64,000 nucleotides of DNA, taken from the NCBI GenBank assembly GCA_003280915.1, contig QCDL01000006.1, positions 1-64,000 on the forward strand, in the 5' to 3' direction. The translations under genes were made by a program, and so were the position numbers. Below are positions 1,515-53,120 of this stretch, piece after piece. Under the pieces are notes generated by a model that saw only the letters and a list, made by a program, of their open reading frames with translations, did not search any database and was not told where the DNA came from. Every line of letters starts with the position of its first letter. The stretch's first letter is position 1. This DNA is from Prochlorococcus sp. AG-355-I04. Its GTDB lineage: Bacteria > Cyanobacteriota > Cyanobacteriia > PCC-6307 > Cyanobiaceae.

Positions 1515-1516
1515 TG

Positions 1517-2464: not shown

Positions 2465-2555
2465 TTTTAAAGTAACTTTCTTTATTTTGACTGCCTTAAT
2501 TGACTTATGATAACATAACTAACTGTTTTAGAATTGATTAAATTTTACTTATAAA

Positions 2556-3446: not shown

Positions 3447-3452
3447 TTATTT

Positions 3453-4886
3453 TTATTTTATGATTTTGATATTTGATCCGCATCCAAGTTTCCAAATATT
3501 TAGATCACTTTCAACAAAATGATTAGGGTCAATTATGTCTCTACAATCAAAAATCCACGATGGTTTGCGCATTAATTTTGAAATTCTTGACCATTCAATT
3601 GCCTTGAATTCATCCCATTCAGTTAGGATTATTATGGCATCTGAACCATTTGCTAGTTGCTCATAAGAAGAAGCCATGGAGATACTATCATTAGTTTTAA
3701 ATGAATTATTTTCAGGATTGTTGAAATTTTCTAAAGAATCGGATATTTCTTGAAATTTAACTTTAGGATCAAAAATCGATAACTTCGCTCCCTCTAGTAA
3801 TAAATTGGAACAGATATTTATAGCTGGTGATTCCCTTGTATCGTTTGTATTAGCCTTAAAAGCAAAACCTAGTATCCCAATTTTTTTGTTTGTTACTGTT
3901 CCAAATAATTTTTTTACAATAATATTGGTTAGTCTATTTTGCTGCCAATTGTTTATTTCTAAAACCTCTTTCCAGTAATTTGCTACCTCATTTAAACCGT
4001 ATAATTTGCAAATATAAACCAAATTTAAAATATCCTTCTTAAAGCAGCTTCCTCCAAATCCAGGACCCGATTTTAGAAAGTGTTTACCAATTCTATAGTC
4101 CATCCCAACTGCTTTTGCTACTTCTGATATGTCGGCACCAGTTTTTTCGCATAATGCTGAGATAGAATTAATCGAACTTACTCTCTGAGCTAAAAAGGCA
4201 TTGGCTGTTAATTTTGATAATTCGGAGCTCCAAATATTTGTTTTTATAATTTTTTCTTCACTAACCCAGTTTTTATATATATTTACTAAGGCATCTATTG
4301 AAGTTTTACTCTCTCCTCCAATTAATACTCTGCTTGGATTAATTAAATCATCTATGGCAGTACCTTCTGCTAAAAATTCTGGACTTGATAAAACAGTAAA
4401 AGATTTTGAGGGATTTTTTTCTAAACCCTTTTGAGAGGAAATTAGTATATTTTTGATTACTTCAGCAGTTTTTACTGGTATTGTACTTTTTTCAACAACA
4501 ATTGTATGCCCAACAGCATATTCAGCAATTGATCTCGCGGAACTCTCAATATATTTTAAATTACTTGCCTCTCCAGCTCCTAGTCCGCTTTGTTTAGTTG
4601 GTGTATTTACAGAGATGAACACCATATCTGATTCAGCGATTGATTCTTGTATCTTTGTGCTAAAAAATAAATTTTTATTTCTGCATCTTTTTATTAAATC
4701 TTTTAACCCTGGTTCATAAACAGGTAATTTTGTTAAGTCTGCGTTATTCCAAGAATCAATTTTTACTTTATTAAGATCAACAACTATTACTTTTAAGTAT
4801 TTACATTTATCAGCAATTACGGCCATTGTAGGTCCTCCTACATATCCAGCTCCTATGCAACAAATTGTTTTAACCTCTACACTCAT
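3453..4886 (-). CDS. ugd: UDP-glucose 6-dehydrogenase
   Basis: The 477-residue protein has the N-terminal Rossmann motif GAGYVGGPTMAVIA and the catalytic-cysteine segment GPGFGGSCFKKDI at about residues 268-280. The C-terminal domain contains GFAFKANTNDTRESPA. It oxidises UDP-glucose twice with NAD to UDP-glucuronate. Length and the GGPT/VIVVDLN wording match the longer eukaryote-like UGDH subgroup rather than the roughly 390-450 residue bacterial Ugd/TuaD forms. It precedes rfbA by 6 bases and probably supplies the UDP-xylose synthase two genes on. Confidence 0.92.
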   Translation of the reverse strand: MSVEVKTICCIGAGYVGGPTMAVIADKCKYLKVIVVDLNKVKIDSWNNADLTKLPVYEPGLKDLIKRCRNKNLFFSTKIQESIAESDMVFISVNTPTKQSGLGAGEASNLKYIESSARSIAEYAVGHTIVVEKSTIPVKTAEVIKNILISSQKGLEKNPSKSFTVLSSPEFLAEGTAIDDLINPSRVLIGGESKTSIDALVNIYKNWVSEEKIIKTNIWSSELSKLTANAFLAQRVSSINSISALCEKTGADISEVAKAVGMDYRIGKHFLKSGPGFGGSCFKKDILNLVYICKLYGLNEVANYWKEVLEINNWQQNRLTNIIVKKLFGTVTNKKIGILGFAFKANTNDTRESPAINICSNLLLEGAKLSIFDPKVKFQEISDSLENFNNPENNSFKTNDSISMASSYEQLANGSDAIIILTEWDEFKAIEWSRISKLMRKPSWIFDCRDIIDPNHFVESDLNIWKLGCGSNIKIIK

Positions 4887-4920
4887 TAATATTACAAAAT
4901 TTAGTATCAGTAGGATAATT

Positions 4921-6216
4921 TTAAATCATTGCCGCTCTTAACCCGGCTAATAAGATCCAAGTCATAATACTTATTCTCAAATCAAAATACTGCATATCAA
5001 ATAAATGTGAATATGCAATAAATAATATTGATGAAAACCAAGCCTTCTCAAAAATTAAATCTTCTTTACTGCGATTGATTCTTAATGCTGCATAATTTGC
5101 TATAAATTTATAAAATTTGTATAGGTATTTGAAAACTTTAGAAGAAATAATAAAGGCAGTTAATACTCCGTAATTAAAAGCAAGCTCAAAGATAATATTG
5201 TGTGGATGGCCTATCCATTTATCCTTTAATGTCTCATAAACAATGGGGAAAGAGCCTCCACCCCATCCAAGAAAAGGTCTTTTAATAATATTTTCGATAC
5301 TAAATCTCCAAATCTCCAGTCTTGGATAAGCCTCGCTAAGTTCTACTGATTTATCTGGGAAATTATTAAAAATATTTATAGGAACAAAGGAAACAAAATC
5401 ATTCTTTATTGAAGATGGTAATAAAGAAATAAAAAAAGTTAAGATTATAAAAGACAATAATATTAAAGGAATCAGTAAGGAAATTGTCTCGAATCCCAGC
5501 ATTATTTGAATTGAAATCAACATTCCTAGCCATGAATTTCTTGAGTTGGTCAGCAAAATAGAAGTTATCAATAAAAAACAAATTATTGCACTAATAAGTT
5601 TTTTAGATTTTTTATTACATTTAAGAAAGTAATAAACTGAAAAGGGCCAAACAAGTGTCAACCAAGATCCCGCATAATTAGCATTATTAAATGGACCTGT
5701 TAATCCGTCTGTTAAGGTTATTGGTTTTTGGTACCAGATAATTAATCCGTTTAAAATCTGAAACGGACCTGTTACGTTAAAGAAATATTGGAGAAAACCA
5801 GAAATAACTACAGGTAATGAACCAATAACTAATAATTTTCCGACCATTTTTCTTACCTTTTTCTTTTCCAAATATGGCTGAAAACCCCAAAAACACCAGA
5901 AAAATGGAATCCAATTAATTAAACTAATCCATGACAAATTTCCAATATCTTTTTGGATAAGAATTGGGTTGTTCAAATTATTATATATGCAACTTAAAAT
6001 CATTAATAAAGAAACAATAATAAATGCTTTATTTGTTCTTTCTTTAATAAAATTTATAGGATTATTATTTTTACTAAATAATAAAGATAAAAATAATGTT
6101 AATACAGCAATAACAGGAGCAGTTGGTAATAGGAAAACTCCTATATAAAGTAATTTCAAACCCGTTTTATATATACTTATCTCTCCTTTATTAAAAAAAT
6201 TAAAGTTTTTAAACAT
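4921..6216 (-). CDS. O-antigen ligase/polymerase-like membrane protein (Wzy_C)
   Basis: The 431-residue, strongly hydrophobic protein has roughly ten or more membrane segments. Near residues 315-345 it has the Wzy_C signature: R-PFLGWGGGSFP, then GHPHNIIFELAFNYGV. This family includes WaaL O-antigen ligases, Wzy polymerases and cyanobacterial IctB-like proteins. The position between tRNA-Arg and sugar-nucleotide genes favours transfer or polymerisation of surface polysaccharide in the inner membrane. Ligase versus polymerase cannot be decided from sequence. Confidence 0.8.
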   Translation of the reverse strand: MFKNFNFFNKGEISIYKTGLKLLYIGVFLLPTAPVIAVLTLFLSLLFSKNNNPINFIKERTNKAFIIVSLLMILSCIYNNLNNPILIQKDIGNLSWISLINWIPFFWCFWGFQPYLEKKKVRKMVGKLLVIGSLPVVISGFLQYFFNVTGPFQILNGLIIWYQKPITLTDGLTGPFNNANYAGSWLTLVWPFSVYYFLKCNKKSKKLISAIICFLLITSILLTNSRNSWLGMLISIQIMLGFETISLLIPLILLSFIILTFFISLLPSSIKNDFVSFVPINIFNNFPDKSVELSEAYPRLEIWRFSIENIIKRPFLGWGGGSFPIVYETLKDKWIGHPHNIIFELAFNYGVLTAFIISSKVFKYLYKFYKFIANYAALRINRSKEDLIFEKAWFSSILFIAYSHLFDMQYFDLRISIMTWILLAGLRAAMI

Positions 6217-27377: not shown

Positions 27378-28436
27378 GTGTTACAAACTTACGGAAAATC
27401 TGATGTCACCTATGACTGGTATGCAGGAAATTCTGGTGTAGTTGGCCGTTCAGGTAAATTCATTGCTGCCCATGCTGCTCATGCAGGACTAATGATGTTT
27501 TGGGCAGGAGCTTTTGGATTATTTGAATTAGCTCGTTACGACGCCAGTATTCCAATGGGGGCTCAGAAAGCAATTGTTTTGCCTCACCTAGCGGGTATTG
27601 GAATTGGTGGCGTTGAAAATGGTGTTATTACAGAACCATATGGAATTGTTGTAATTTGCACATTACATCTAATTTTCTCAGCAGTATTGGGAGCTGGGGG
27701 ATTATTACATTCCAACAAATTTGCAGGTGATCTTGGAGATTACCCAGAAAATAGTAAGCCACAAAAATTTGATTTCGAATGGGATGACCCAGATAAATTA
27801 ACTTTTATTCTTGGTCATCATCTAATTTTTCTTGGGCTTGGAGCAATTATGTTCGTCGAATGGGCTCGTATTCATGGAATTTACGACCCAGCAATAGGAT
27901 CTACAAGACAAGTAATTTACAATTTAGATATTGCTGCTATCTGGAATCATCAATTTGATTTTTTAAAAATAGATAGTCTTGAAGACGTTATGGGAGGACA
28001 TGCTTTTCTAGCTTTCCTGGAAATAATTGGAGGTGTTTTCCATATTTGTACTAAACAATTTGGAGAATATACAGAATTTAAAGGTAAAGGATTACTTGGA
28101 GCTGAGGCAATATTGTCATACTCAGTTGTTGGTGTTTCTTATATGGCTTTTGTTGCGGCTTTTTGGTGTGCTTCAAATACAACCATATATCCAGTTGATT
28201 TATATGGAGAACCCTTGAAGCTTCAATTTGAATTCGCCCCTTATTTTACTGATACAGTAGATTTAGGTTCAGGAACGTATAGCTCAAGGGCTTGGCTTGC
28301 TAATACTCATTTTTATTTGGGTTTCTTTTTCTTACAAGGTCATCTTTGGCACGCACTAAGATCAATGGGATTTGACTTTAAGAAAATTGGTCAAGCTTTT
28401 GACAATATTGAAAATACAAAAATTACTCAAAACTAG
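27378..28436 (+). CDS. pcb: Pcb chlorophyll a/b-binding light-harvesting protein (IsiA-like)
   Basis: The 352-residue protein has six membrane segments of the CP43-like antenna family, with conserved histidines in AAHAAHAGLMMFWAGA, LPHLAGIGIG, LGHHLIFLGLG, GGHAFLAFLEIIGGVFHI and LQGHLWHALRSMGF. It lacks the large lumenal loop of CP43. It starts at GTG. It binds divinyl chlorophylls around photosystems. Neighbouring flavodoxin suggests the iron-stress PSI-ring type rather than the constitutive PcbA. That is an inference, and sequence alone does not settle which photosystem it serves. Confidence 0.92.
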   Translation: MLQTYGKSDVTYDWYAGNSGVVGRSGKFIAAHAAHAGLMMFWAGAFGLFELARYDASIPMGAQKAIVLPHLAGIGIGGVENGVITEPYGIVVICTLHLIFSAVLGAGGLLHSNKFAGDLGDYPENSKPQKFDFEWDDPDKLTFILGHHLIFLGLGAIMFVEWARIHGIYDPAIGSTRQVIYNLDIAAIWNHQFDFLKIDSLEDVMGGHAFLAFLEIIGGVFHICTKQFGEYTEFKGKGLLGAEAILSYSVVGVSYMAFVAAFWCASNTTIYPVDLYGEPLKLQFEFAPYFTDTVDLGSGTYSSRAWLANTHFYLGFFFLQGHLWHALRSMGFDFKKIGQAFDNIENTKITQN

Positions 28437-34842: not shown

Positions 34843-35865
34843 GTGCAAAATCTCAAAAAAATTTTTTATTCAGCACTAACATGTACATTTTTGCTAAACG
34901 TTAATATACCCGCTAATTCCACAGAAAAAGAAGTCAAAGTTTATTCTGGTAGACATTACAACACAGATAGAAGTATTTATAAAAAGTTTGCAGATGAAAC
35001 AGGAATAAAAGTCAGGCTTATAGAGGCAGCAGGAATTTCTTTAATCGAAAGATTGAAACGTGAAGGGAAGAATTCTCAAGCAGATTTAATATTGTTAGTA
35101 GATGCTGCAAGAATTACTAATGCAGCCAAAGCTGGGTTACTGCAACCAATAAATTCTTCTAATTTAGAAAATGATGTTCCTATTGGATTAAAAGATCCAA
35201 ATAAAGAATGGTATGCATTAACAAGAAGAGTAAGAGTTATGATAGCTAATCCAAAAGTGGTAGATGTTAGCCAGATTAATGATTATACTGATTTGGCTGA
35301 TCCTTCTTTAAAAGGGAAAGTATGTTTAAGAAATAGAAAAAGTCCATATAATCAATCTTTAGTTGCCAATCAAATAATTAACAAAGGTCAATCAGAAACT
35401 AAAGCTTGGTTAAGCGGGATGATTTCAAATGTTTCTCAACCATTTTTCCCAGGTGATATTTCAATAATTAGAGCAGTTTCTAAGAAAAAATGCGGAGTAG
35501 GAATTGTTAATCATTATTACGTAGCAAGAATGTTAGCAGGCGTTAATGGAAGGAGAGATGCCTTGTATGCAAAAAAGACAAAGGTTCTTACGCCTAATCC
35601 TGCACACATAAATATTAGTGCTGGTGGTGTTGCAAAATATGCAACAAATAAAAATGAAGCTATTCAGCTGCTTGAATTCTTAGCATCTCCCAAAGGAAGT
35701 AAAGGTTTAGCTGCACCTACTTTTGAACATCCCTTGAAGGAAGTTAATCAGAATGAAATAGTAAAGAACTTTGGAGAGTTTACGCCTGATAGTGTAACCG
35801 TAGAAGACCTTGGAGAAAAAAATTCTCTAGCTATTAAATTGATGAAAGATGCAGGATGGAATTAA
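34843..35865 (+). CDS. futA: iron(III) ABC transporter substrate-binding protein
   Basis: The 340-residue protein starts at GTG and has a signal peptide of about 27 residues. The mature part has VKVYSGRHYNTDRSIYKKF, the FutA/IdiA hallmark, with tyrosines that bind Fe3+ (HYN near the start, NHYYVARML near residue 228). It captures ferric iron in the periplasm for an ABC importer. The permease and ATPase genes are not adjacent. It is also known as idiA, and neighbouring iron-stress genes fit this role. Confidence 0.93.
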   Translation: MQNLKKIFYSALTCTFLLNVNIPANSTEKEVKVYSGRHYNTDRSIYKKFADETGIKVRLIEAAGISLIERLKREGKNSQADLILLVDAARITNAAKAGLLQPINSSNLENDVPIGLKDPNKEWYALTRRVRVMIANPKVVDVSQINDYTDLADPSLKGKVCLRNRKSPYNQSLVANQIINKGQSETKAWLSGMISNVSQPFFPGDISIIRAVSKKKCGVGIVNHYYVARMLAGVNGRRDALYAKKTKVLTPNPAHINISAGGVAKYATNKNEAIQLLEFLASPKGSKGLAAPTFEHPLKEVNQNEIVKNFGEFTPDSVTVEDLGEKNSLAIKLMKDAGWN

Positions 35866-35927
35866 AAATTAAGATAATTATATAGTTCATAATTTTCTCA
35901 TTATTAAGTGCATACTTATAAACAGGC

Positions 35928-36012
35928 GGAGAGGTGGCTGAGTGGTCGAAAGCGAACGACTCGAAATCGTTTAATAGGAAACTATTCGTGGGTTCGAATC
36001 CCACCCTCTCCG
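35928..36012 (+). tRNA. tRNA-Ser(CGA)
   Basis: The acceptor arms GGAGAGG and CCTCTCC pair fully. The anticodon loop CTCGAAA gives CGA. A long variable arm (class II, between AATCGTTTAATAGGAAACTATTCGTGG) and the T-arm GGGTTCGAATCCC follow. The discriminator base is G and CCA is not encoded. The 3' end has a degenerate copy 2 kb downstream. Confidence 0.97.
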
Positions 36013-36239
36013 TATGATTTTAAATCTTGCTATTTCACGGACAAACAATTATTTTGTACCCTTGAAGAATCAGCTCTTTGTGTTAATTTCAGATTTTAAA
36101 TATCTAATACAAAGTTTAAATTTTGTTTAAAAGAGAAGTAGCTTTTGGCGGTTTTGTTAGCGGGTTTTATGAATTTATTTTTTATAAAAGTCTCGACAAA
36201 ACTTTTAAAAGTGAGATGCTGAGTAAGAATCGCTCAATT

Positions 36240-36995
36240 ATGAAACGTAAAAAAATTTTTGAAAAAAAAAATAGTTTTCATAATAAACAAGAAGGATATA
36301 CAATCGTTGAAATTCTTTTAGTAACATTAGTTATTGGCTTAACTTTTAGTGTATCCCTCCCATTGTTTGGTGCTGTAATTAATAAGGCAAGGCAAAAAGA
36401 GGCAACTCTAATAGTTAATAGTGTTCTTAAAGCAGTAAAGGCTAGTTATGCTTTGGATTCATTCTTACCATCTAAAATAAAATCACTCGAAAAATTTGCT
36501 TCATTTCAAAAGTGTATCTCTGAAGAAGTTGCGATAAAAGGTAGAGAAGTTTGTGATTTAAATACTATTGCAAAAACTGATGCAAATGATAAATATTTTT
36601 ATTCTCCATCTGGAAACTATAAAGTAGAATTCAAGACTACTGGGATTAGTAATTCTGATATTATTTTTCAAGTAAGAGCTATTCCAAATGGAGTCATTTA
36701 TAGAAATAAGGGCAGTAGTGTGACTGGGTGCTTTAATCCAATAGAGGGAATATCAAGTATTAAGGAATATTCTTTCTTTAATGTTGGAGAAAAAGAATTT
36801 ATTTCTTGTTTCACCTCATTTCAAATCAATAAAGCGGAGGAAGCAAGGAAAGCGGAGGAAGCAAGAAAAGCGGAGGAAGCAAGAAGAGCGGAGGAAGCAA
36901 GAAGAGCGGAGGAGGCAAGGAAAGCTGAGGAAGCAAAACCTAAGTGTATTTATTGGAATCCAAGAAATCCATCTCAATGTTTTAGATATAGGTAA
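36240..36995 (+). CDS. type IV pilin-like protein with KAEEAR repeat tail
   Basis: From ATG at 36240 the protein has 251 residues. A basic leader ends KQEG, followed by YTIVEILLVTLVIGLTFSVS, the class III prepilin pattern with Gly at -1 and Glu at +5. A globular part with Cys-X-Cys pairs follows. Six tandem KAEEAR/RAEEAR units (about 198-233) precede a Cys-containing end CIYWNPRNPSQCFRYR. A longer frame opens at TTG 36123, but the leader would then be 58 residues, unlike pilins. It probably goes to the periplasm or surface through a pilus-type system. The function of the repeats is unknown. Confidence 0.8.
   Translation: MKRKKIFEKKNSFHNKQEGYTIVEILLVTLVIGLTFSVSLPLFGAVINKARQKEATLIVNSVLKAVKASYALDSFLPSKIKSLEKFASFQKCISEEVAIKGREVCDLNTIAKTDANDKYFYSPSGNYKVEFKTTGISNSDIIFQVRAIPNGVIYRNKGSSVTGCFNPIEGISSIKEYSFFNVGEKEFISCFTSFQINKAEEARKAEEARKAEEARRAEEARRAEEARKAEEAKPKCIYWNPRNPSQCFRYR
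36831..36938 (+). repeat. six tandem 18-bp units encoding KAEEAR
   Basis: Six units of the form AAAGCGGAGGAAGCAAGR run in frame near the 3' end of the pilin-like gene. They differ at a few bases, such as AGAGCG for AAAGCG. The encoded helix is highly charged and TolA-like. Slippage could change the copy number without breaking the frame. Confidence 0.95.
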
Positions 36996-37025
36996 TCAAA
37001 GAGATTGCTTTGAAATTTATTATTT

Positions 37026-37877
37026 TTAAATTATTTTCCTGAATCCAACTTGTACCCCTGAAGAATCAAAGCCATCTTTAGCTTCGTAGGTGTAAGGTGT
37101 CCCCAATCCATCATTGGTAGTGTGGGATTTTGCATCCCTTTTGAATCCCTCGATGTAAAAGATGTTTTTATCGGAAAACTTATAACTCAAACCCGCTTTT
37201 AACTGCGTAACAAAAGCTTGTCTTACGTATTCAGGAATAAAAGGAGCCGAATCTTGGACACTGTTAACGAATCCAATTCCTAAGCCAATGAATGGCGAGA
37301 ATTTTTTACTATCTCTGAAATCGTAATAAGTATTAATTATGTAAAAGTCTTTATGCAATTCCCCTCTATCGTTTTCAATTTTCGTAATGCTGTTGTCGAA
37401 ATAGGTAAGGTATTCATCAAATCTCCCATCTTCTTGAGCATATGATAATTCTGTTCTTATTTTTCCAAAGTCATAACCTATACCTATTTCTATTGAACGC
37501 CCTAATTCTGTATATCTATCGTCCCATATTGCTTTATTAGTGGAAGTATTGTAGACATCATAATTTTTTAAACTTGAGTATCCAATAGAAAAGTTTAGAT
37601 AAAAGTTTTTACTATAATTCTCAAAACTTTTAACTTGTTGATCATTTTCTATTATCATTTGTATTGACTTATTTTGCTTAAAAGTTGTTTCATTAATATT
37701 TAACTCTTCATCTAAAATTTCTTTTTCTTTTCCCTCTATTACATTTGATATTTTCTTCTCTTCAGGAGTAGTTTGGGTTTCAATTTGATTGATTTTAGTA
37801 TTATTTTTTTTTAATGAGCAGGACGATAGAGGTATGCTTAAGAAAAAAATTAAAAATAAAATTTTCCTTTTAATCAT
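37026..37877 (-). CDS. outer-membrane beta-barrel lipoprotein
   Basis: The 283-residue protein has a lipobox in IPLSSCSLKKN, so Cys is lipidated. A charged linker (about 25-85) follows, then an eight-strand-like barrel with alternating strands such as FYLNFSIGYSSL, SIEIGIGYDFGKIRTELSYA and FSPFIGLGIGFVNS, ending GVQVGFRKI. This resembles OmpA/P44-like surface antigen barrels. It is convergent with the pilin-like gene, 30 bases apart, and both lie between tRNA-Ser and its degenerate 3' copy. Confidence 0.8.
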   Translation of the reverse strand: MIKRKILFLIFFLSIPLSSCSLKKNNTKINQIETQTTPEEKKISNVIEGKEKEILDEELNINETTFKQNKSIQMIIENDQQVKSFENYSKNFYLNFSIGYSSLKNYDVYNTSTNKAIWDDRYTELGRSIEIGIGYDFGKIRTELSYAQEDGRFDEYLTYFDNSITKIENDRGELHKDFYIINTYYDFRDSKKFSPFIGLGIGFVNSVQDSAPFIPEYVRQAFVTQLKAGLSYKFSDKNIFYIEGFKRDAKSHTTNDGLGTPYTYEAKDGFDSSGVQVGFRKII

Positions 37878-38068
37878 TTTTAGTTAACTTTTACATCCTT
37901 TGAATCTTCTTAATCCAATTACAACTATAAAAATATTGAAAGTCAAAGGATCAAAGTTTTAGAAATAAATTTAAATTAGGTTGCAATTTTTGTTGGCGGG
38001 AAATTCTTTTTCGATATGAAAAACCTGTTCAGACGTGTTCTATAGTATTCTCTAAGTTTAAAATCGTT

Positions 38069-38089
38069 CCACCCTCTCAGTATAATTTT
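38069..38089 (+). repeat. degenerate copy of the tRNA-Ser(CGA) 3' end
   Basis: 19 of 21 bases match 36001-36021: CCACCCTCTC, one mismatch, GTAT, one mismatch, ATTTT. The copy covers the last 12 bases of the tRNA and 9 bases beyond. It is in the same orientation 2068 bp downstream, the layout of an att-site pair for an element that targets a tRNA gene. Confidence 0.55.
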
Positions 38090-38106
38090 TGATCCTTATA
38101 CCTTTT

Positions 38107-38224
38107 GTTGTGGTAATTAATCCTCCTAAATGCCTGCAAATTAACCATAGTTTATTAAATATAGATTTAAAGTTTATATTGTCATTTTGAATTTAACGCA
38201 ATAACTCCCATCAAAATATGGTGG
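38107..38224 (+). repeat. dispersed intergenic element, copy A
   Basis: It is related along about 118 bases to 46126-46243. Both begin with the identical 15-mer GTTGTGGTAATTAAT, share TAGATTTAAA and ATTGTCAT in the middle, and end near CCCATCAAAAT. I estimate clear identity over most of the length with two single-base indels. The function is unknown. Confidence 0.75.
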
Positions 38225-38381
38225 ATAAAGAAAAATAAATCTACCTTTCTTTGTCCCGCTCTTATAGTGGATTCTAAATATATGTAGCTCTCGAAAAAGA
38301 AAAATTCTTTTTCCCTGAACATTCTTTGGATTAGAAAGTTATACTCCCTACTTAAAAATCTTTAAAGTTATTTTGGGAAAA

Positions 38382-40511
38382 TTACCTTACCATTGCAGCA
38401 ACATTTCCACCATCTACAGTCAAAAGAGCACCTGTAGTTTTTTCCATTTCAGCTAATGCCAAAAAAGCTTTTGCCACGTCTAAGGCTAAAACCTCTGATT
38501 GTAATAAATTGCCAGACATGTATTCGTTCTCTGAAATTCCTCTAGATACTGCTCTTTTTTTTATCATTTCTTCATTTAACAAACCAGATTTAATCCTATC
38601 GGCATTTATCCCATTTGCCCTGATTTTATTTAAACCCTCTTCAATTGAAATTTGTCTCATTAAAGCAAGCAGTGCAGCTTTAGATATTCCATAAGAACCA
38701 AAGTTTGGGCCAGGATTAATCGCTTGTTTACTAATGTTAAATAATATTTGCCCCCCAATTAAATTTTTTTTATCTTCCTCGCAAAAATCTTGTGAATGGA
38801 AAATATTGATTGCAAATTTTGAAACGTAATAATGAGCGAATAGATTTATTTCCATACTTTTTCTAAAAAGAGATTCATTCATTTTTGATATACTTCCTTC
38901 CCAAGCAGCTCCAGCATTTGAAATTAAAATATCTAGTCCTCCAAAATTCCTAATAATCTCATCAAAAGTATTCTCTAATGCTTTTTTATTGGTAATATCA
39001 CACCCTATTGCTAAGGTGTTATCTCCAATACTGTTAGCTATTAAATTAGCTGATTTCTTATCTAAATCAATCGCTACAACCTCTGCTCCAGCATTCTTGA
39101 ATTGTCTTGCGATCTGAGAACCAATCACTCCTCCAGCACCAGTTATTGCAATGATTTTACCACTTAAAAGTGGGGGTTTGTTCTTGCCTAGTTTTGCCTG
39201 TTCTAAACTCCAATATTCTAAATCAAACGTATCTTTTTCACAAACTGGATTAAAATCTCCAATTGAAGTTGCAGATAAAACTGTTTCTATCCATGCTTGA
39301 CCAATATCAGCAGCAACTTTAGAAGATTTCTTATTGATTCCTATCCCAATTAGACCAATACCAGGAATTAATATTAAACGAGGCAAAGGATCTAATTGTG
39401 TCTTAGCCTCTTTAGAAAATTTAGAGTTTCTCTCGAAATAATCTTCATACTCCATTATGTATTTATTGATTTTTTCTTTCGCATTATGAACCCAATTATA
39501 AATTTTTTCCTCGAAGCTTTTATTTTTGTCCGGGACAAAACTCTCCAATAAAAGTGGTTTTGCTTTGGTTCTAATTACATGATCTGGGGTCGCTACACCT
39601 TTGTTGATAAGTGAGTTTAATTCTTGATGACAAAAAAGCTCTTTTGTATTCTCATTATTTCTGATATCAAAAATCCAATTATTATTTGTACAGTATTTTT
39701 TTGAAAGTCTCCCGATTAGACCTCTCAAATAAGGAATAATAATGTTGGAATTATTAGATGATTCTGAAGAGTTGGTGAAATCAAGATTAACTTTTCTTTT
39801 AAGTGCTTTTTCAGCAGTATTTACTAAATTAATCATCCTTTGATAACTTAACTTAGCCGTTTCTCCAAATGAGAATATTCCATGGTTTTTCAAGATAATT
39901 CCTTCTAATTCAATACCCTCTAACAAAGCAGTTTTGTTTGCTTTATTAAATTCTTTAAATGCTTCTTTGGCTAAGTTAAAACCTGGCATAACATATGGAA
40001 CTATGGCCACCCTTTTACCAAATATTGCTTTACATAATTCGATAGCATTTGGTTGATTTGCGAGTGCAAGTATAGATAATGAGTGAGTATGATCGATATA
40101 CTTGTGAGGAATAAATGCATGTAAGAGTGTCTCTACTGAAGGATTTGGAGAATTAGGATTCAGTAAATTTTGTCTTTGTGCTGCAACCATATCTTCATCA
40201 CTTAATTCGTTTAATTCTTTGAGTTTTATCAAAGGGTTAAGTTTTACAGCAGGGTGACCCTCTGGCTCGATTGTGGAAAGGTCCCATCCTGATCCTTTAA
40301 CATGTAGAACATCTATTTCATTCCCTAAAATATCTTTCAAAGTGCTTTTAAGAGAAGTGTTACCTCCACCATGCAAAACTAGCTCAGGATCAGAACCTAA
40401 TAATCTTGCTGAAAAAGTTCTTAATGCAAGATCTTCAGAAATACCTATTGCTTTATATTTAGCTACATATTTTTTCGCTTCATCATCGGACCAATTATTT
40501 TTACATGCCAT
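38382..40511 (-). CDS. bifunctional class II aldolase / short-chain dehydrogenase (rhamnulose-1-phosphate aldolase type)
   Basis: This is a 709-residue fusion. The N-terminal class II aldolase (about 1-400) has LHGGGNTSLK, the zinc ligands in PHKYIDHTHSLS and the third His in LKNHGIFSF. The C-terminal short-chain dehydrogenase (about 440-705) has TGAGGVIGSQIA, NAGAA and the active site SYGISKAAL. The aldolase would split a 5-deoxy- or methylthio-ribulose-1-phosphate (or rhamnulose-1-phosphate) to DHAP and an aldehyde, and the dehydrogenase would oxidise or reduce the aldehyde. Neighbouring mtnA, apt and mtnP favour the methylthioribose or deoxyribose substrate. Substrate choice is inferred. 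Confidence 0.88.
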   Translation of the reverse strand: MACKNNWSDDEAKKYVAKYKAIGISEDLALRTFSARLLGSDPELVLHGGGNTSLKSTLKDILGNEIDVLHVKGSGWDLSTIEPEGHPAVKLNPLIKLKELNELSDEDMVAAQRQNLLNPNSPNPSVETLLHAFIPHKYIDHTHSLSILALANQPNAIELCKAIFGKRVAIVPYVMPGFNLAKEAFKEFNKANKTALLEGIELEGIILKNHGIFSFGETAKLSYQRMINLVNTAEKALKRKVNLDFTNSSESSNNSNIIIPYLRGLIGRLSKKYCTNNNWIFDIRNNENTKELFCHQELNSLINKGVATPDHVIRTKAKPLLLESFVPDKNKSFEEKIYNWVHNAKEKINKYIMEYEDYFERNSKFSKEAKTQLDPLPRLILIPGIGLIGIGINKKSSKVAADIGQAWIETVLSATSIGDFNPVCEKDTFDLEYWSLEQAKLGKNKPPLLSGKIIAITGAGGVIGSQIARQFKNAGAEVVAIDLDKKSANLIANSIGDNTLAIGCDITNKKALENTFDEIIRNFGGLDILISNAGAAWEGSISKMNESLFRKSMEINLFAHYYVSKFAINIFHSQDFCEEDKKNLIGGQILFNISKQAINPGPNFGSYGISKAALLALMRQISIEEGLNKIRANGINADRIKSGLLNEEMIKKRAVSRGISENEYMSGNLLQSEVLALDVAKAFLALAEMEKTTGALLTVDGGNVAAMVR

Positions 40512-40604
40512 TTTTAGTTAATAATTTAATACAATCTAATAAATTTTTTATTTATGTTTTTGATCATATGTTTATTAAAAAACAATTTATAACAAACTAA
40601 AATG

Positions 40605-41705
40605 TTATTTCTTTTTGTAAAACTTACTTATTTCAGATTTATTAGCTTTGCATATACCTCTTTCAGTAATTAAGCCCGTAATTAAATTATTTGGAGTTAC
40701 ATCAAATCCTGGATTAAAACCATGAGTACCTTGTGGAACTAATTTCACTGTCTCTATATTTCCACTATCATTCAATCCAGAAATATGTGTGACTTCTCTT
40801 TCTGATCGCGCTTCAATAACTATTTCACTAAGGCCATCTTCAAGTTCCCAATCAAGAGTTGAAATAGGTAATGCAGCATAAAAAGGAATGTCATTATCAT
40901 TGGCTGCCAATGCTTTTAAATAAGTTCCAATTTTATTGCAAACATCTCCTTGAGAAGTTGTTCTATCACTACCTACTATTACGAGATCAACAAGACCATG
41001 CTGCATCAAATGTCCTCCTGCGTTATCAACAATAACTGTATGAGGTATACCTTCATTCTTTAATTCAAAAGCTGTAAGACTTGCTCCTTGATTCCTCGGT
41101 CTAGTCTCATCAACCCAAATATGTAAATTCAGTCCGGCTCTATGTGCTTTATATATAGGAGCTAAAGCAGTTCCCCAATTTACAGTAGCTAACCATCCAG
41201 CATTGCAATGTGTAAGAATGTTGATTACTTTTTTCTCATTTTTGATAATTTTCCTATCATAAATTTCTTGAATTATTTTTAATCCATTATCCCCAATTAA
41301 TGAACACATTTCGATATCTTCCTTTTCAATAATACATGCTTCCTTCATTGCGGCATTTAGTCTATCTACTTGACTCAAATCTTTTACTTTTTGGAAAATT
41401 CTGTCAAGAGACCATTTTAAATTAACAGCAGTTGGCCGAGTAGCAAGTAATGTTTCATAAGTTTTCTCTAAATTTGAAGATGAAGGGTTTTCTCGTAATC
41501 CGAGCATTAATCCATAAGCCCCCATCACACCTATTAAAGGAGCTCCCCTTATAACCATTTGGCTTATTGCATTGGCAGCTTCAAATGAATTATTTATAAC
41601 TTTCACTTCGAACTTGTGAGGTAATTTTGTTTGATCAATAACCTCAATTTTTTGAGTTTCTTTATTCAGCCATATAGTGTGCCATTCTTTATTTTCTATC
41701 AACAT
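40605..41705 (-). CDS. mtnA: S-methyl-5-thioribose-1-phosphate isomerase
   Basis: The 366-residue protein has MVIRGAPLIGVMGAYGL near residue 50, the catalytic Cys of THCNAGWLATVNWGTALAP and the Asp of IVGSDRTTSQGDVCNKIGT. It converts methylthioribose-1-phosphate to the ribulose isomer, and homologues also take 5-deoxyribose-1-phosphate. Length is typical of MtnA. It lies between apt and the aldolase-dehydrogenase on the same strand. Confidence 0.94.
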   Translation of the reverse strand: MLIENKEWHTIWLNKETQKIEVIDQTKLPHKFEVKVINNSFEAANAISQMVIRGAPLIGVMGAYGLMLGLRENPSSSNLEKTYETLLATRPTAVNLKWSLDRIFQKVKDLSQVDRLNAAMKEACIIEKEDIEMCSLIGDNGLKIIQEIYDRKIIKNEKKVINILTHCNAGWLATVNWGTALAPIYKAHRAGLNLHIWVDETRPRNQGASLTAFELKNEGIPHTVIVDNAGGHLMQHGLVDLVIVGSDRTTSQGDVCNKIGTYLKALAANDNDIPFYAALPISTLDWELEDGLSEIVIEARSEREVTHISGLNDSGNIETVKLVPQGTHGFNPGFDVTPNNLITGLITERGICKANKSEISKFYKKK

Positions 41706-41747
41706 TGTTTTCTTGAATAGAGTTTTTAATTGGATTAATAAAAGTAT

Positions 41748-42272
41748 TTATAGAGTAATTTGACTTTTTACTTCACAATGTAATTTATTTTTTCCCTGCA
41801 ATTCTTCAAGCTCTACTACTACAACTAATTCATGTACTTGTTTATCTTGATTTAAAAGCATTTTTTCTACACAAGCAGCGGTCCCTCCTGTTGCTAACAA
41901 ATCATCTACAATTGAGAAACTTTTATATTTCTTAATTGATTCACTTTGTATACATAGGGTATTTTTGCCATATTCAAGACTATAAGAATCGCTAATTAAA
42001 TGTCCTGGAAGTTTTCCAGGTTTGCGTGCAAAAATAAGTGGTTTTTTAGTATGTAAAGAAATTGCTGTTCCAAAAATAAATCCACGCGCATCAATCGCAA
42101 CAATAGCATCTGAATTTTTAATTCCTTCTGATTGACTCATGCTTTGTATTAATTCATGAAACACCTCTGGATCTTGGAGGACAGGAAGAATATCACAAAA
42201 AACTATACCTTCCTTAGGAAAGTTTTTATAACTTCCAAATAAATTAAGTAAATTTCTCTCTAACTGATTCAT
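41748..42272 (-). CDS. apt: adenine phosphoribosyltransferase
   Basis: The 174-residue protein has FPKEGIVFCDILPVL, DAIVAIDARGFIFGTAI and the PRPP loop SIVDDLLATGGTAAC. ARKPGKLPG is the Apt hood segment. It converts adenine and PRPP to AMP. Beside mtnP and mtnA, it would recycle the adenine released from methylthioadenosine or deoxyadenosine. It is divergent from mtnP across 48 bases. Confidence 0.93.
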   Translation of the reverse strand: MNQLERNLLNLFGSYKNFPKEGIVFCDILPVLQDPEVFHELIQSMSQSEGIKNSDAIVAIDARGFIFGTAISLHTKKPLIFARKPGKLPGHLISDSYSLEYGKNTLCIQSESIKKYKSFSIVDDLLATGGTAACVEKMLLNQDKQVHELVVVVELEELQGKNKLHCEVKSQITL

Positions 42273-42320
42273 ATAATCAATTTTTAGATATTATATTATC
42301 TTAGTACGTTAAAAAGGAAT

Positions 42321-43211
42321 ATGGATTTTGAAAATACAGCCACTTCAAAGTTAGGCGTATTTGGAGGTAGTGGTGTTTATTCCATTGATAATTTAAAAAA
42401 TATTCAAGAATTATCAATAGATACTCCATATGGTAAAACTTCGGACAACCTTATAGTTGGAGAACTAGAGGGAATTGAGACCGTATTCCTTGCAAGACAT
42501 GGTAAGCATCATACTTTCACCCCAACAGAGGTCCCATACAGAGCTAATATTTGGGCGATGAAATCATTGGGAGTAAAATGGATAATTTCAGCATCGGCTG
42601 TTGGATCTCTAAAGGAAGAGATAAAGCCTTTAGATATGGTTTTACCTGATCAATTTATTGATAGAACAAATAATAGGCCTATGACTTTTTTTGGCGAAGG
42701 AATTGTTGCTCACGTTGCAATGGCTGATCCATTCTGTCCTAAACTTACTGGCATTTTAAAAGAAGTTACTGAACCACTTATTCCAGATGGATCCAATCTA
42801 CATGTAGGGGGAACATATTTATGTATGGAGGGCCCTGCCTTCTCGACAAGAGCAGAATCATTTTTTTATAGGTCTTTAGGATGTTCAATAATTGGTATGA
42901 CCAATCATACAGAAGCAAGATTATGTAAAGAGGCAGAAATTGCTTATGTAAGTCTCTCTATGTCAACAGATTATGATTGTTGGCATGAAGATCATGAAGA
43001 CGTTTCTGTAGAAATGATAATTAAAAATCTAAATAAAAATGCTGAATTAGCCAAAAGGATAATAACCGCTGCTGCCAAGGTAATTGGTGAAGAAAGACCA
43101 AAAAGTTTAGCTCATAGTGCATTAAAGGATGCGCTGATTACGCCAAAAGATAAAGTACCTAAAAAGACCTTAAAAAAGATAGAGTTATTTACTCAAAAGT
43201 ATTGGAATTAA
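42321..43211 (+). CDS. mtnP: 5'-methylthioadenosine phosphorylase
   Basis: The 296-residue protein has FGGSGVYSID, HGKHHTFTPTEVPYRAN and GMTNHTEARLCKEAEIAY. The TDYDCWHEDHEDVS near the end is the MTA-phosphorylase signature instead of the Asn/Asp of plain PNPs. It splits MTA to adenine and methylthioribose-1-phosphate, and family members also split 5'-deoxyadenosine. An AAGGA sequence lies just before the ATG. Confidence 0.93.
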   Translation: MDFENTATSKLGVFGGSGVYSIDNLKNIQELSIDTPYGKTSDNLIVGELEGIETVFLARHGKHHTFTPTEVPYRANIWAMKSLGVKWIISASAVGSLKEEIKPLDMVLPDQFIDRTNNRPMTFFGEGIVAHVAMADPFCPKLTGILKEVTEPLIPDGSNLHVGGTYLCMEGPAFSTRAESFFYRSLGCSIIGMTNHTEARLCKEAEIAYVSLSMSTDYDCWHEDHEDVSVEMIIKNLNKNAELAKRIITAAAKVIGEERPKSLAHSALKDALITPKDKVPKKTLKKIELFTQKYWN

Positions 43212-43364: not shown

Positions 43365-44819
43365 TTAAGTTAAAACGAAAGACTCTAAAGGTAACTTTGC
43401 AGGGTCAGTACTTACTCCTCTATGTGATTTTTTCCCAAAAAAATCTTCTCTGCTAGAGGCTAAAACTTCTTTACTAACTAATGAAGCAAGATAATCTTTA
43501 TTGTCACAATTTTGAAGCAATTCATTAACAGTTAAATTAGAAGATTCATCATGTGCCTTCTTTATTGCTTGGAAAAGATTATTTTCAACCTCAATTGTAT
43601 TGCCCCATCGAATATTTATAAGACCAAAGCCATCTTCTTGTCTAAATCTTAGGGAAGGATTCGTATAAACAGTATTATTTGGATTATCCATAATTTCTCT
43701 ATGAGATTTATCTGCAATAGCTTTTATATGATGCGTAATGTGTTCTGAACCAAGCATTAATGGGTCTTTGCCATCAATGTTCCCTGTAGTTGCCAAGGCA
43801 GACATTCTACAACCAGTCTGACAAACATTTATATATTCACAGGATTTGCAGCCTTCATAGAAAACACTATTGTCTCGCCAAAATTGTGTTTTAGCATATG
43901 TAGCTTTAAGACCATTTTTGAATATATCACCATAAGAAGCATCTTCCATAACACATGTATGAGAATCTCCTGAAGCTTGTATGCTGAACCTATGGCCTGA
44001 TTGAGAGGGACAACCTCTTCCAACAAAGTCACTGTATTTTTCCAGATCTCCAATCATACAAAGTGGGTACCCAATTAAAGTAGATACATTAATGGAGTAT
44101 TCTTTTTTTAATCTTAATAAAATATCTAAAGTATCTTTAGCTTCATTTGCTTCAAGATTATTAGCAGGGTTCTTTTCTTTTAAAGCTCTTTCATAAGCCG
44201 GTGGTATTACTCTGTGAGCAATAAATTGCTGAACTCCTAATTCCGCTAAGAACTTTCCAGCCTCATAAACTGAATTTATTGTGTGCGAAGTTACTATAGT
44301 ATTAACACTCATTCTGATCCCTGCTTCTACACAAGTTTTTATCCCTTCGATGACCTTATCTTGTGCTCCTTTAACTTGAGTTATATGACTAGTAGTATTA
44401 GGATCAGTAGAGTACCAAGAAGCTAATATATGATCTAAGCCAAGATCTCTCAACTGCTTGGCTTTATCTTTTGTTATTAGTGAAACATTTGAATTGAGTG
44501 AGATGGAGATATTATTTTCTAATAATTTCGGTATTGCGTATAGAAGAAGCTTGTAATTTACTAATGGTTCACCACCAGAGAGTACAACGTGGAAAACTCC
44601 ATTGGTAATAAACTCTTCAAGAAGATAATCAAATTGATCTATAGTAAGATGATTTTTACCTGCAGATACCTCTCTCCACGGGTTATAGCAATGCAAACAT
44701 TTAAAATTACAACCTTCTGTTATTTCTAGATTTATAACAGTTGGTGCAGAATAAACTCTCTTAATATAATTACTTTGAGTGGACCACTTTTTATCAGTAT
44801 TGATCCACGTATAGTCCAT
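43365..44819 (-). CDS. radical SAM/SPASM maturase-like protein with PqqD-like tail
   Basis: The 484-residue protein has the radical SAM cluster motif in EGCNFKCLHCYNP (CxxxCxxC) near residue 36, and LSGGEP near residue 81. The SPASM region has GCKSCEYINVCQTGCRMSALA, which binds extra iron-sulfur clusters. The tail from about residue 390 (SLRFRQEDGFGLINIRWGN, VENNLFQAIKKA, LTVNELLQNC) resembles PqqD/RRE peptide-binding domains. SPASM enzymes usually modify peptides or proteins. No precursor gene is seen. The RRE reading is a pattern judgement. Confidence 0.85.
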   Translation of the reverse strand: MDYTWINTDKKWSTQSNYIKRVYSAPTVINLEITEGCNFKCLHCYNPWREVSAGKNHLTIDQFDYLLEEFITNGVFHVVLSGGEPLVNYKLLLYAIPKLLENNISISLNSNVSLITKDKAKQLRDLGLDHILASWYSTDPNTTSHITQVKGAQDKVIEGIKTCVEAGIRMSVNTIVTSHTINSVYEAGKFLAELGVQQFIAHRVIPPAYERALKEKNPANNLEANEAKDTLDILLRLKKEYSINVSTLIGYPLCMIGDLEKYSDFVGRGCPSQSGHRFSIQASGDSHTCVMEDASYGDIFKNGLKATYAKTQFWRDNSVFYEGCKSCEYINVCQTGCRMSALATTGNIDGKDPLMLGSEHITHHIKAIADKSHREIMDNPNNTVYTNPSLRFRQEDGFGLINIRWGNTIEVENNLFQAIKKAHDESSNLTVNELLQNCDNKDYLASLVSKEVLASSREDFFGKKSHRGVSTDPAKLPLESFVLT

Positions 44820-45224: not shown

Positions 45225-45995
45225 ATGACAAATTTCGATAACAAGAAAACTCTAAGAGAATTAATGCAAGAGCTTTTGCTGACAGGCGATTATTTTGTAA
45301 AAAGAGAAATTCAAAAACAGGAAACTTCTTATTGGGGAGACGAAGCGATAGTTAATGATCCAGATGGGAACATAAGAAATCTATTGAGTAAAGATGAAAT
45401 CGATAAAAGGGTGCAAAACTATGAATATATAATTAAATTCGTCCAAGATTTATCTCCAGAATCTGTTTTAGATCTTGGGTGTGGTTTAGGAGATATGCTT
45501 CTTAATCTTGATGGAGTAAAATTCAGAACAGGGGTTGATTCAGATGTAAAACTTGCCCAAAAAAGATCCAATAAAATTTCTTGGATAGAATCTGATGTAG
45601 AATTTTTTGAAAAAGTTAGCAATTATGAAGTGATAATTTGTCATCATGTTATTGAGCATTTAGATGACCCTGTAAATTTTATTAAAAGGATTTATTTGGC
45701 AATGAAAAAGGATTCTGTGTTAATAGTAGGAACTCCTGATTTTGATTGTGGTGCTGCCAGATTATTTGATAAGAAATTTAGAATGTTAGATGATCCAACA
45801 CATCAATCTCTTTTTAGTTTGGATAGTTTAACTAGGCTATTAAGAGACACTGGCTTTATTCTTATTGATTCAGATTATCCTTTTTTTGAGACTAATTACT
45901 TTAACCAAGAAAATTTAATGAAATTATTTAATAAGGACGATTATTCGCCTGCATTCTATGGGAATTGGTTTACATTATTTGCTAAGAAAAAATAA
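45225..45995 (+). CDS. class I SAM-dependent methyltransferase
   Basis: The 256-residue protein has SAM motif I SVLDLGCGLGDMLLNLDG (about 78-95) and the acidic end of beta 2 in TGVDSDVKLA. The later motif ICHHVIEHLDDPVNFIKRIY is typical of Methyltransf_11/23 types in surface-glycan and small-molecule pathways. An N-terminal part of about 75 residues precedes the domain. The substrate is unknown. Confidence 0.85.
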   Translation: MTNFDNKKTLRELMQELLLTGDYFVKREIQKQETSYWGDEAIVNDPDGNIRNLLSKDEIDKRVQNYEYIIKFVQDLSPESVLDLGCGLGDMLLNLDGVKFRTGVDSDVKLAQKRSNKISWIESDVEFFEKVSNYEVIICHHVIEHLDDPVNFIKRIYLAMKKDSVLIVGTPDFDCGAARLFDKKFRMLDDPTHQSLFSLDSLTRLLRDTGFILIDSDYPFFETNYFNQENLMKLFNKDDYSPAFYGNWFTLFAKKK

Positions 45996-46387
45996 ACAAT
46001 TTATAGTTAAGATTTTTCCACTCAATCTTTAGATAATCACTTGTTAAATTATAAGAATCTTGAATATCCTTACTAATGACATATTATTTGAAGAATTCTA
46101 AAGGTATCTTGAAACAAAAATATGCGTTGTGGTAATTAATTCTGCAAAATGCTTGTAAAAAAGAAATACTTGATTTGAGATAGATTTAAATATTTAGATT
46201 GTCATATTGAAATTAAAGCTATGACTAACCCATCAAAATGTGGTTTTTTTTTGACTAAAGCCATTTTAAATTGTTGAGATTATATTATTGATTAATTGAC
46301 TAAAGTTTTTTTACAGTTTACGATAACAAAAAAAAATTTTTAATTCATGCCTAAAATAAACCAAGTAAATAGCAGATTTTTGAGTGT
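45996..46387. other. 392-bp gap with dispersed element copy B
   Basis: No supported open frame. The gap is taken up mainly by the element at 46126-46243, followed by an AT-rich stretch up to the next methyltransferase start. Confidence 0.55.
46126..46243 (+). repeat. dispersed intergenic element, copy B
   Basis: It is the partner of 38107-38224 in the same orientation. Its end folds as CCAT-CAAAAT-GTGG (with a T.G wobble where copy A has ATGG) and is followed by nine T residues, like an intrinsic terminator. The compensating wobble hints that the hairpin matters. A small RNA is one reading, a decayed mobile or coding remnant another. Confidence 0.75.
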
Positions 46388-47161
46388 ATGTTGAATTTTA
46401 AAACTAACCGATCAAAAAAAGAACATGATGCCTATGAGAAGGGTTTGCAAAGAGATTTATGGAAGCATTTCAAGCTGGCAGGTTTTCTAGAGAAGAAAAA
46501 TAGACATAGAATAATTAAAAATTTAATTAATGAGGAAAATTTAAAGAATCTTAAGATTTTAGAAATTGGTTGTAAAGAATGGGTAAAGTTAATTCATGAT
46601 AATTTCAAAACGAATCCAGCAGCATTAGATTGTATAAATATTTCTCCATCCGAAATTAGTGATGCAAAAAAAAATGCAAATAAATTGGATTTAAGATATT
46701 TGCCTAACTGGATACTTATGGATGCTCATGAATTAGATTATGAAGATGAAAGCATGGATTTAATAATAGGTATGGGAATCCTTCATCATTTATCTCTCAC
46801 CGAAGTATATAGTGAAATCAATAGAGTGCTTAAACCTGGCGGGATTGCATTTTTTTCTGAACCATTAGATATAAATCCCTTACTAACTCTAGCTAGAGTA
46901 TTAACACCAAAATCAAGAACAGTTGACGAAGAACCATTTAAAATAAAACACCTTAACTTGACAAAGAAATATTTTCCAAAAACAAACTTTGTATATCAAG
47001 AATTTTTTACATTTTTCTTTTCACCATTTCTAGGATTAATGCCTAAAAGAATAGCAAATCTAATAATGATAATACTTTATAAAATTGATTGTTTTCTACT
47101 TAAAATCTTTCCAATTTTTGGTTATTTATATAGAACCGTTTTTATAATAATGAGAAAGTGA
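46388..47161 (+). CDS. class I SAM-dependent methyltransferase
   Basis: The 257-residue protein has KILEIGCKEWVKLIHDNF as motif I, with a non-standard KEW where G-x-G would be. SPSEISDAKKNANK and LIIGMGILHHLSLTEVYSEINRVLKPGGIAFF follow. The C-terminal part is hydrophobic and aromatic. The substrate is unknown. It follows the first methyltransferase after a 392-bp gap that holds repeat copy B. Confidence 0.8.
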   Translation: MLNFKTNRSKKEHDAYEKGLQRDLWKHFKLAGFLEKKNRHRIIKNLINEENLKNLKILEIGCKEWVKLIHDNFKTNPAALDCINISPSEISDAKKNANKLDLRYLPNWILMDAHELDYEDESMDLIIGMGILHHLSLTEVYSEINRVLKPGGIAFFSEPLDINPLLTLARVLTPKSRTVDEEPFKIKHLNLTKKYFPKTNFVYQEFFTFFFSPFLGLMPKRIANLIMIILYKIDCFLLKIFPIFGYLYRTVFIIMRK

Positions 47162-51737: not shown

Positions 51738-53120
51738 TTAATCTAAATCTGGCATTTCTAGAGCTGGTTCACTCTTTCTGTCGATTCCTTTTTCGAAACC
51801 AGCAGCGGCTGCTCTAGCACGTCCAGCATGCCAAAGATGACCAATGAATGTAAACCATCCTAGGAAGAATTGGGCTGCAGCTAACCATTGTCTTAAGTTG
51901 ACGAAGTTAACAGCATTCGGCTCTGTAATGATTCCACCAACAGAGTTGATAGAAGCGTTTGGAGCATGAGTCATATATTCAGCTGCTCTTCTTACCTGCC
52001 AAGGCTGAATATCATTTTGGATTTTCTCAAGGCTCAATCCATTAGGTCCTCTTAGAGGCTCTAACCATGGCCCTCTGAAATCCCAAAATCTCATTGTTTC
52101 ACCACCAAATATAATTTCACCAGTAGGAGATCTCATGAGATACTTACCTAGACCTGTTGGTCCCATTGTTGAACCTACGTTAGCTCCAATTCTTTGATCT
52201 CTCACTAGGAAAGTAAAGCTTTGTGCCTGTGAAGCTTCAGCATTTGTTGGGCCATAAAACTCTGAAGGGTAAGCAGTGTTGTTAAACCAGATAAAAGTTG
52301 AAGCAATAAAACTTGCTACACAAATTCCACCAAGAGCATAACTTAATAATCCTTCACCATTCCAGATAAAAGCTCTTCTAGCCCATCCGAAAGGTTTGGT
52401 AAAGATATGGAATATTCCTCCAATAATTGCAGTAATACCCACATAAACATGTCCACCAACAATATCTTCAATGGAGTTAACACCGATTATTGAACCAGCT
52501 CCTCCCCATGGAGATCTGAATAGATAACCAAGGATAACTCTTGGATCTAAGGTTGGATTTACAAGTCTGACTTCACCACCACCTGGTGCCCATGTGTCAT
52601 ATGCACCGCCAATAAAACACCAGTTAACTGACCATGCTAGTGCACCTACACCTAAAACAATCAAATGATATCCAAGGATATTTGTCATTTGATTTTTATC
52701 TCTCCAGTCGGTTGAGAAAAATGGAAAATCTTCTTCAAGTTTTTCTGGACCTGCTAATGAATGGTAAATACCACCAAATCCAAGTACAGCAGAAGCTATC
52801 AAGTGAACCACGCCTGCTTGGAAGAAAGGCATGATATCAGTAACTTCACCACCTGGGCCTATTCCATAGCCAAACATTGCAACGTGTGGCATACAGATTA
52901 AACCTTGCTCCCACATTGGTTTATCAAAAGTAAAATGATTAACCTCAAAGAGCATCATTGCTCCAGCCCAAAAGACTATTAGTCCAGAGTGAGCAATGTG
53001 AGCTCCTAATAAACGTCCAGATAAATTGATTAATCTAGCGTTACCTACATACCAGGCATAACCAGTTTCCTCAATACTTTGGTTTGGAGCTCTTAATAAA
53101 TTATTAAAGGGCGTTTCCAC
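51738..53120 (-). CDS. psbC: photosystem II CP43 reaction centre antenna protein
   Basis: The 460-residue protein has six membrane helices and a large lumenal loop, with chlorophyll-binding histidines, for example in [16 protein letters not shown] and [14 protein letters not shown]. The start is the GTG at 53120, just inside psbD. The sequence [14 protein letters not shown] and a strong Shine-Dalgarno (TGAGGAGG) 9 bases upstream support it. An upstream TTG in the same frame is less likely. It overlaps psbD by 17 bases, as in other cyanobacteria. CP43 binds chlorophyll a and the Mn cluster on its lumenal loop. Confidence 0.97.

Follow-up and report, generated by a model that had tools for sequence, protein, structure and literature searches.

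The intergenic element that occurs twice in this window (the whole stretch of 64,000 nucleotides from Prochlorococcus sp. AG-355-I04 analysed here) is probably, with a likelihood of about 0.8, the conserved left end of a family of small integrative units that have a specific insertion site, the 3' end of tRNA-Ser(CGA), in Prochlorococcus. Across the genus a unit with two ends, repeats of a core taken from the tRNA, precise empty sites and insertion before two different flanks were identified, with no integrase gene at the site. An earlier note on this DNA had proposed a small-RNA family or a mobile or regulatory remnant; of these it is the mobile remnant that stands, and strongly, in the form of the tRNA-side end of a site-specific integrative unit. 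The relevant features are listed below, with the kind of evidence in brackets.

34843..35865 (+), conserved gene of an iron-binding periplasmic protein, which we take to be futA/idiA-like, upstream of the tRNA (ORF)
35927..36013 (+), tRNA-Ser(CGA), intact, the putative integration target (ARAGORN, Rfam tRNA)
36002..36012 (+), 11-bp core CACCCTCTCCG at the tRNA 3' end, the putative crossover region (33 repeats on the tRNA strand)
36014..38069 (+), apparently younger inserted unit of ~2.05 kb between the tRNA and copy A (comparison)
36123..36995 (+), pseudopilin-like protein of 290 aa, cargo (ORF; weak match to TIGR01710, 24.7 bits, below the cut-off)
37026..37877 (-), lipoprotein/outer-membrane-like protein of 283 aa, cargo (ORF; no Pfam or NCBIfam match)
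38070..38080 (+), decayed core CACCCTCTCAG, 10/11 identical to the tRNA 3' end (sequence comparison)
38081..38106 (+), left spacer of the element's unit (aligns with the 24-27 nt behind the tRNA in eight genomes)
38107..38225 (+), copy A, probable left-end arm of the unit (alignment, model search)
38217..38271 (+), decayed direct repeats, TATGGTGGA at 38217 and TATAGTGGA at 38263 (motif count)
38382..43211, cargo formed by a bifunctional aldolase/SDR (709 aa, -), mtnA (-), apt (-) and mtnP (+) (ORFs, family searches)
43365..44819 (-), radical SAM/SPASM-type protein of 484 aa (ORF, family searches)
45225..45995 (+), SAM-dependent methyltransferase of 256 aa (ORF, family search)
46126..46244 (+), copy B of the element, with no detectable core or repeats on either side (alignment, model search)
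46388..47161 (+), second SAM-dependent methyltransferase, 257 aa, rare in the genus (ORF, family search)

Copies A and B were identified where the earlier note had placed them, at 38107-38225 and 46126-46244, in the same orientation and 8,019 bp apart, both in gaps where no ORF reaches 70 aa and with the salvage genes and the radical SAM gene between them. They are 78% identical over 119 bp (E 4.8e-20, far beyond chance), with differences that include indels of 1 and 2 bases, and the exact 15-mer described as common to both, GTTGTGGTAATTAAT, is their longest identical run. The end motif is also as described, CCAT-CAAAAT-ATGG in A and CCAT-CAAAAT-GTGG in B, the latter followed directly by nine T. 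Recombination between the two copies, which had been put forward as well, is unsupported: 15 bp is the longest identical run available to it and the junction expected from an A-B deletion was seen in no genome. The placement of the copies holds but the left boundary of A does not, as its homology to other genomes does not begin at 38107: on the left it continues for 26 bp and enters a decayed tRNA-Ser 3' end (38070-38080), on the right it extends to ~38271, and copy B retains the 119-bp core only. What follows the decayed core corresponds to the sequence directly behind the tRNA in eight genomes (88% identity to G610), and positions 38070-38106 are identical to the tRNA/unit junction of G610 at 33/37 positions, a result as good being reached by none of 3000 shuffles.

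A sequence-only model was built from five element copies and searched against 266 genomes of the genus, most of them draft assemblies and some incomplete; the study comprises one tRNA. Copy A scored 104.8 bits and copy B 90.2 bits, and no further clear copy was identified in the 1.56-Mb genome, where the note had suggested that others be looked for. A third, weak match in this genome (G000:C21:798-898, 19.3 bits) is of the order of the chance matches in other genera. Single copies had been identified by BLAST in G015 and G033; in these neighbourhoods the element lies directly after tRNA-Ser(CGA), the tRNA located in the window 2 kb upstream of copy A, and the BLAST pieces of the comparison with the window overlap in the tRNA 3' end. 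The search of sister genomes, also suggested in the note, yielded eight carriers besides this one, with one strong copy each, and all eight single copies lie 24-27 nt past tRNA-Ser(CGA). Nearly all loci compared have the futA-like gene upstream of the tRNA. Conservation of the element is not strong, A differing by 10% from G610 where the futA-like gene differs by 5%.

One further weak match was identified in the genus (G542, 20.8 bits), matches in other genera scored 17-20 bits, which is the noise level, and none of the five loci of other genera that were checked (picked by nucleotide search) is near a tRNA. No match to copy B was present in the phage records searched, nor was the element or its right junction detected when viral contigs were scanned with exact degenerate patterns. 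The 14-mer TTGTGGTAATTAAT was tried as a probe on genome contigs and viral contigs and was discarded as too short, its matches being chance. The many copies at unrelated genome places that characterize dispersed repeats of the REP/MITE type were not found: clear copies are two here and one in each other carrier genome, all the single ones at one tRNA.

The complete arrangement is found in G610 and G531, where a gene-free unit of ~213-236 bp comprises the element, the direct repeats and a right end GATGA, ending in a copy of the 11-bp tRNA 3' end, CACCCTCTCCG, at +236 and +217 respectively, and followed by the flank. That flank is the one that directly follows the tRNA in ~21 other genomes (94.6% identity for G610 and 98.7% for G531, beginning inside the core), and it was also identified behind the last core in nine loci. 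In G554 a near-identical unit (element core 98-99% identical) precedes another flank, that of cluster 3, with 82% identity to the flank of locus L302 when counted from the final 9 nt of the tRNA onwards. The core repeat together with two different flanks indicates that the ~213-236 bp piece is an inserted unit with at least two right neighbours, and because it sits exactly between tRNA and flank, the element is best read as the left end of a site-specific integrative unit. Empty sites are equally precise: G531 and G476 share 599 bp upstream of the tRNA at 100% identity and differ by the unit, the empty site for the cargo unit of L320 (1.7 kb, of a distant element type) is 100% identical over 249 bp, and the one for L338, which carries two tandem units, is 99.6% identical. 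The bases before the core track the left-end family, being ATGA with the present element, CTNA in cluster 2 and mostly ATTT in cluster 3.

The alternative that survives best, although we consider it improbable, is that the element is simply the native 3' flank of tRNA-Ser(CGA), perhaps with a terminator, and that copies arose by tandem duplication or accretion during island integration. Such a flank would be expected where the element lies directly after the tRNA, as in the eight genomes, and no intact core separates the element from the next genes in G513, G033, G015 and G560. However, a core copy and a different flank stand behind the element in G610 and G531, and this flank is the better candidate for the native one, given its occurrence both at the tRNA and behind last cores in the other genomes.

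The site as a whole was compared in ~88 loci of the genus, in which between 126 bp and >12 kb separate the tRNA from the next conserved gene, encoding a 607-aa protein. The sequences directly after the tRNA fall into recurring families. The exact 11-bp core is repeated 33 times on the tRNA strand and 0 times on the opposite one within 9 kb, the repeats being present in 28 of the ~88 loci. Shuffled 11-mers gave a mean of 0.15 exact matches, with one that reached 34; for a 15-mer with three mismatches the strand ratio was 31 to 1, and 11/400 shuffled 15-mers equalled the core in approximate matches. The strand test is the stronger one for the core, since some shuffles matched its counts. The mark of a tRNA-targeted integrative element, insertion at a tRNA 3' end with that end directly repeated at the far border, is thus present, as core repeats and empty sites.

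The core-bounded units range from 0.2 to 3.7 kb and contain 0-2 genes. Gene-free units of ~213-245 bp were identified in G531, G610, L295, L289 and L353, and cargo, named by inspection, includes a 326-aa secreted protein, a TPR protein, a MORN-repeat protein, a 1103-aa helicase-like protein and a cytosine-methyltransferase-like protein. The last two belong to L338 (G355), where positions 1-6200 past the tRNA comprise tandem units with the 1103-aa helicase/restriction-like protein and the cytosine-methyltransferase-like protein, each core-bounded, possibly a defence system split over two units. Locus L353 (G248) is a gene-free stack, with cores at 249, 721 and 947 past the tRNA and no ORFs of 70 aa. 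The gene upstream of the tRNA occurs as two alleles ~70% identical in DNA, with near-identical sequences (96-100%) inside one allele group, and recombination at this locus is likely.

Under the preferred reading a unit would comprise the 11-bp core, a spacer of ~26 bp, the 119-bp element, the TGTRGTGGA repeats, optional cargo and, ahead of the next core, a right end (...GATGA) that is specific to the unit. The tRNA would stay intact on insertion and a second core would be left at the far end, so that units would stack with the newest next to the tRNA. The order in the window would then be tRNA, younger 2.05-kb unit, decayed core, copy A, salvage/radical SAM cargo and copy B, a later unit of ~2 kb having pushed copy A off the tRNA; the unit at 36014..38069 is absent in the eight genomes with the element directly at the tRNA. 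An excised circular unit would have the joined-end junction GATGACACCCTCTCCGTAAAATC. No right end for the unit of copy A could be located in the window. For copy B, whose origin is less certain than that of A, the most likely source is the end of an older unit of this family with its core decayed, or of a truncated one; B shows neither core nor spacer and is assigned by the element itself. A look-alike of the core before copy B (ATGACA...) was not above shuffles (p ~0.34 to 0.68), and the single closer relative of the neighbouring 257-aa methyltransferase (51%, in G536) occurs without the element.

The direct repeats are a second component of the left end. Repeats of the TGTRGTGGA type follow the element in G513 (6), G033 (5) and G015 (3), where ~0.03 would be expected per 450 bp, and in these three they lie on one strand only; intact arrays were identified in G513, G033, G610 and G554. 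Related motifs, TTGGTGGA, TTGGGGGA and TTGGCGGG, are present in other left-end families at 113-202 nt from the tRNA, often spaced 12 nt. Counted over the first 350 bp in all families, the motifs reach 2.0 per kb on the tRNA strand and 0.39 per kb on the opposite one (5x). Repeats of the form KTGGNGGA were not found in integrase-bearing islands at other tRNAs. The direct repeats may be arm-type binding sites of the recombinase or of an accessory protein.

They also bear on the terminal hairpin, which is disrupted in 2/10 sequences (G015 and G560), one compensated change each in 2/4 of its pairs being weak evidence of structure. A better explanation for the hairpin half ATGTGG is that it begins the series of TGTRGTGGA direct repeats. 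A small-RNA gene with its own terminator, duplicated here and owing its position behind the tRNA to cotranscription, would account for the 119 bp that are conserved, for copy B retaining just that stretch before its nine T, and for the two compensated pairs; it is nevertheless very unlikely. No Rfam match to the element was identified at curated or permissive thresholds, the RNAalifold covariation terms (+1.96 and +0.34) are unfavourable to a conserved covarying structure, the single copies fold no better than shuffles, and promoter and terminator scans gave the reading no support. No terminator-like site was found; the note had likened the run of T behind copy B to an intrinsic terminator. 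The element is moreover carried by only 9/266 genomes and stands before different flanks. That the pair is a decayed protein-coding fragment was rejected as hardly credible: a minus-strand frame is open across the element in G610, G531, G554, G513 and G594, but it contains stops in G015, G033, G560, A and B, and A and B differ by indels of 1 and 2 bases; reading frames are not conserved.

If the element is a left end, a recombinase has to act on it, and the proposal is that a tyrosine recombinase would be supplied in trans. No match to PF00589 was identified within 13 kb of tRNA-Ser(CGA) in 80 genomes, and an element-encoded recombinase, the hallmark of an autonomous member, was not identified; small serine-resolvase-like ORFs (by inspection) are present in two examined loci only, L340 and L324. 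The sole PF00589 match in this genome is a 389-aa protein (L394:1971-3140, G000 contig C3), flanked by hemH and a cobalamin adenosyltransferase-like gene (neighbours named by inspection). This tyrosine recombinase is a nearly universal single-copy core gene, identified in most of 80 genomes, and its catalytic half is nearly invariant among 17 sequences. It is a candidate for acting in trans on the units. The units, which lack the recombinase they need, look like cassettes moved by an enzyme encoded elsewhere; with no recombinase near the site, the family may also be inactive. The full proposal, that tRNA-Ser(CGA) is a platform for cassettes with no integrase on site and that the conserved 389-aa recombinase beside hemH serves it in trans, is a speculative one that we hold to be rather unlikely.

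The cargo behind copy A is unusual in the genus. The cluster of aldolase/SDR, mtnA, apt and mtnP, adjoined by the radical SAM gene, resembles the DHAP shunt for 5'-deoxynucleosides (PMC10986504). Of 265 genomes of the genus, 5 (counting this one) carry the aldolase/SDR, and its combination with mtnP and mtnA occurs in only four other genomes searched, three of which also have apt. The salvage cluster lies at or near other tRNAs in three genomes, beside tRNA-Ser(UGA) in G504 (L389) and within 3-5 kb of tRNA-Ala in G380 and G008. Elsewhere in the window two Rfam matches to IsrR were identified, at 52523-52706 (+) and 27780-27951 (-), with 150 bits (strong) and 53.7 bits (gathering threshold 52). 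An IsrR match, the photosystem genes nearby and the size of the genome all fit Prochlorococcus.

Genomic islands behind tRNA genes drive gene turnover in Prochlorococcus. Tycheposons of this genus are reportedly the subject of Hackl et al. 2023. They are described as cargo at tRNA 3' ends in Prochlorococcus genomic islands, as in the present case, but with a tyrosine recombinase and a size of 4-200 kbp (PMC10872708). The present units are far smaller, and no such hallmark gene was identified within 13 kb of the site in 80 genomes. The putative attachment region of P-SS2 at tRNA-Met of Prochlorococcus MIT9313 is similar in its several partial tRNA copies and in the hypervariable island behind the tRNA gene, and differs in the tRNA and in the agents proposed, transposases and a phage integrase (PMC2784084). 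The nearest described case is that of the Dehalococcoides ssrA islands, also in tandem behind one RNA gene and bounded by short direct repeats of its 3' end; at one site 16 islands carry serine-recombinase integration modules, and 15 are without an integration module and were discussed as possible cis-mobilizable elements (PMC3146451). Unlike there, no tyrosine recombinase was found at the present site in 80 genomes, and its units are of 0.2-3.7 kb, some of them gene-free.

Integron cassettes are alike in outline, being units of one or two genes stacked at one site with the newest nearest to it, but the core here is the tRNA 3' end, folding of the element brought out no conserved fold or attC-like hairpin, and no integron integrase or other local tyrosine recombinase was identified at the site. 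With cis-mobilizable elements (CIMEs) the units share two att-like borders and the lack of recombination or transfer genes of their own. CIMEs are normally relics that adjoin a related integrase-bearing element. No integrase-bearing relative was seen here, and units of ~235 bp comprise little beyond site and arm.

These ~235 bp site-plus-arm units with precise empty sites define what a mobile unit needs in cis, and the near-identical genomes with empty sites make the question of the enzyme directly testable. Among the cargo at the site are restriction-modification-like genes and, in the present genome, a rare cluster for the salvage of 5'-deoxynucleosides. If the 389-aa recombinase does act in trans, these streamlined cells would share an integron-like system in which enzyme and cassettes are kept at separate places.
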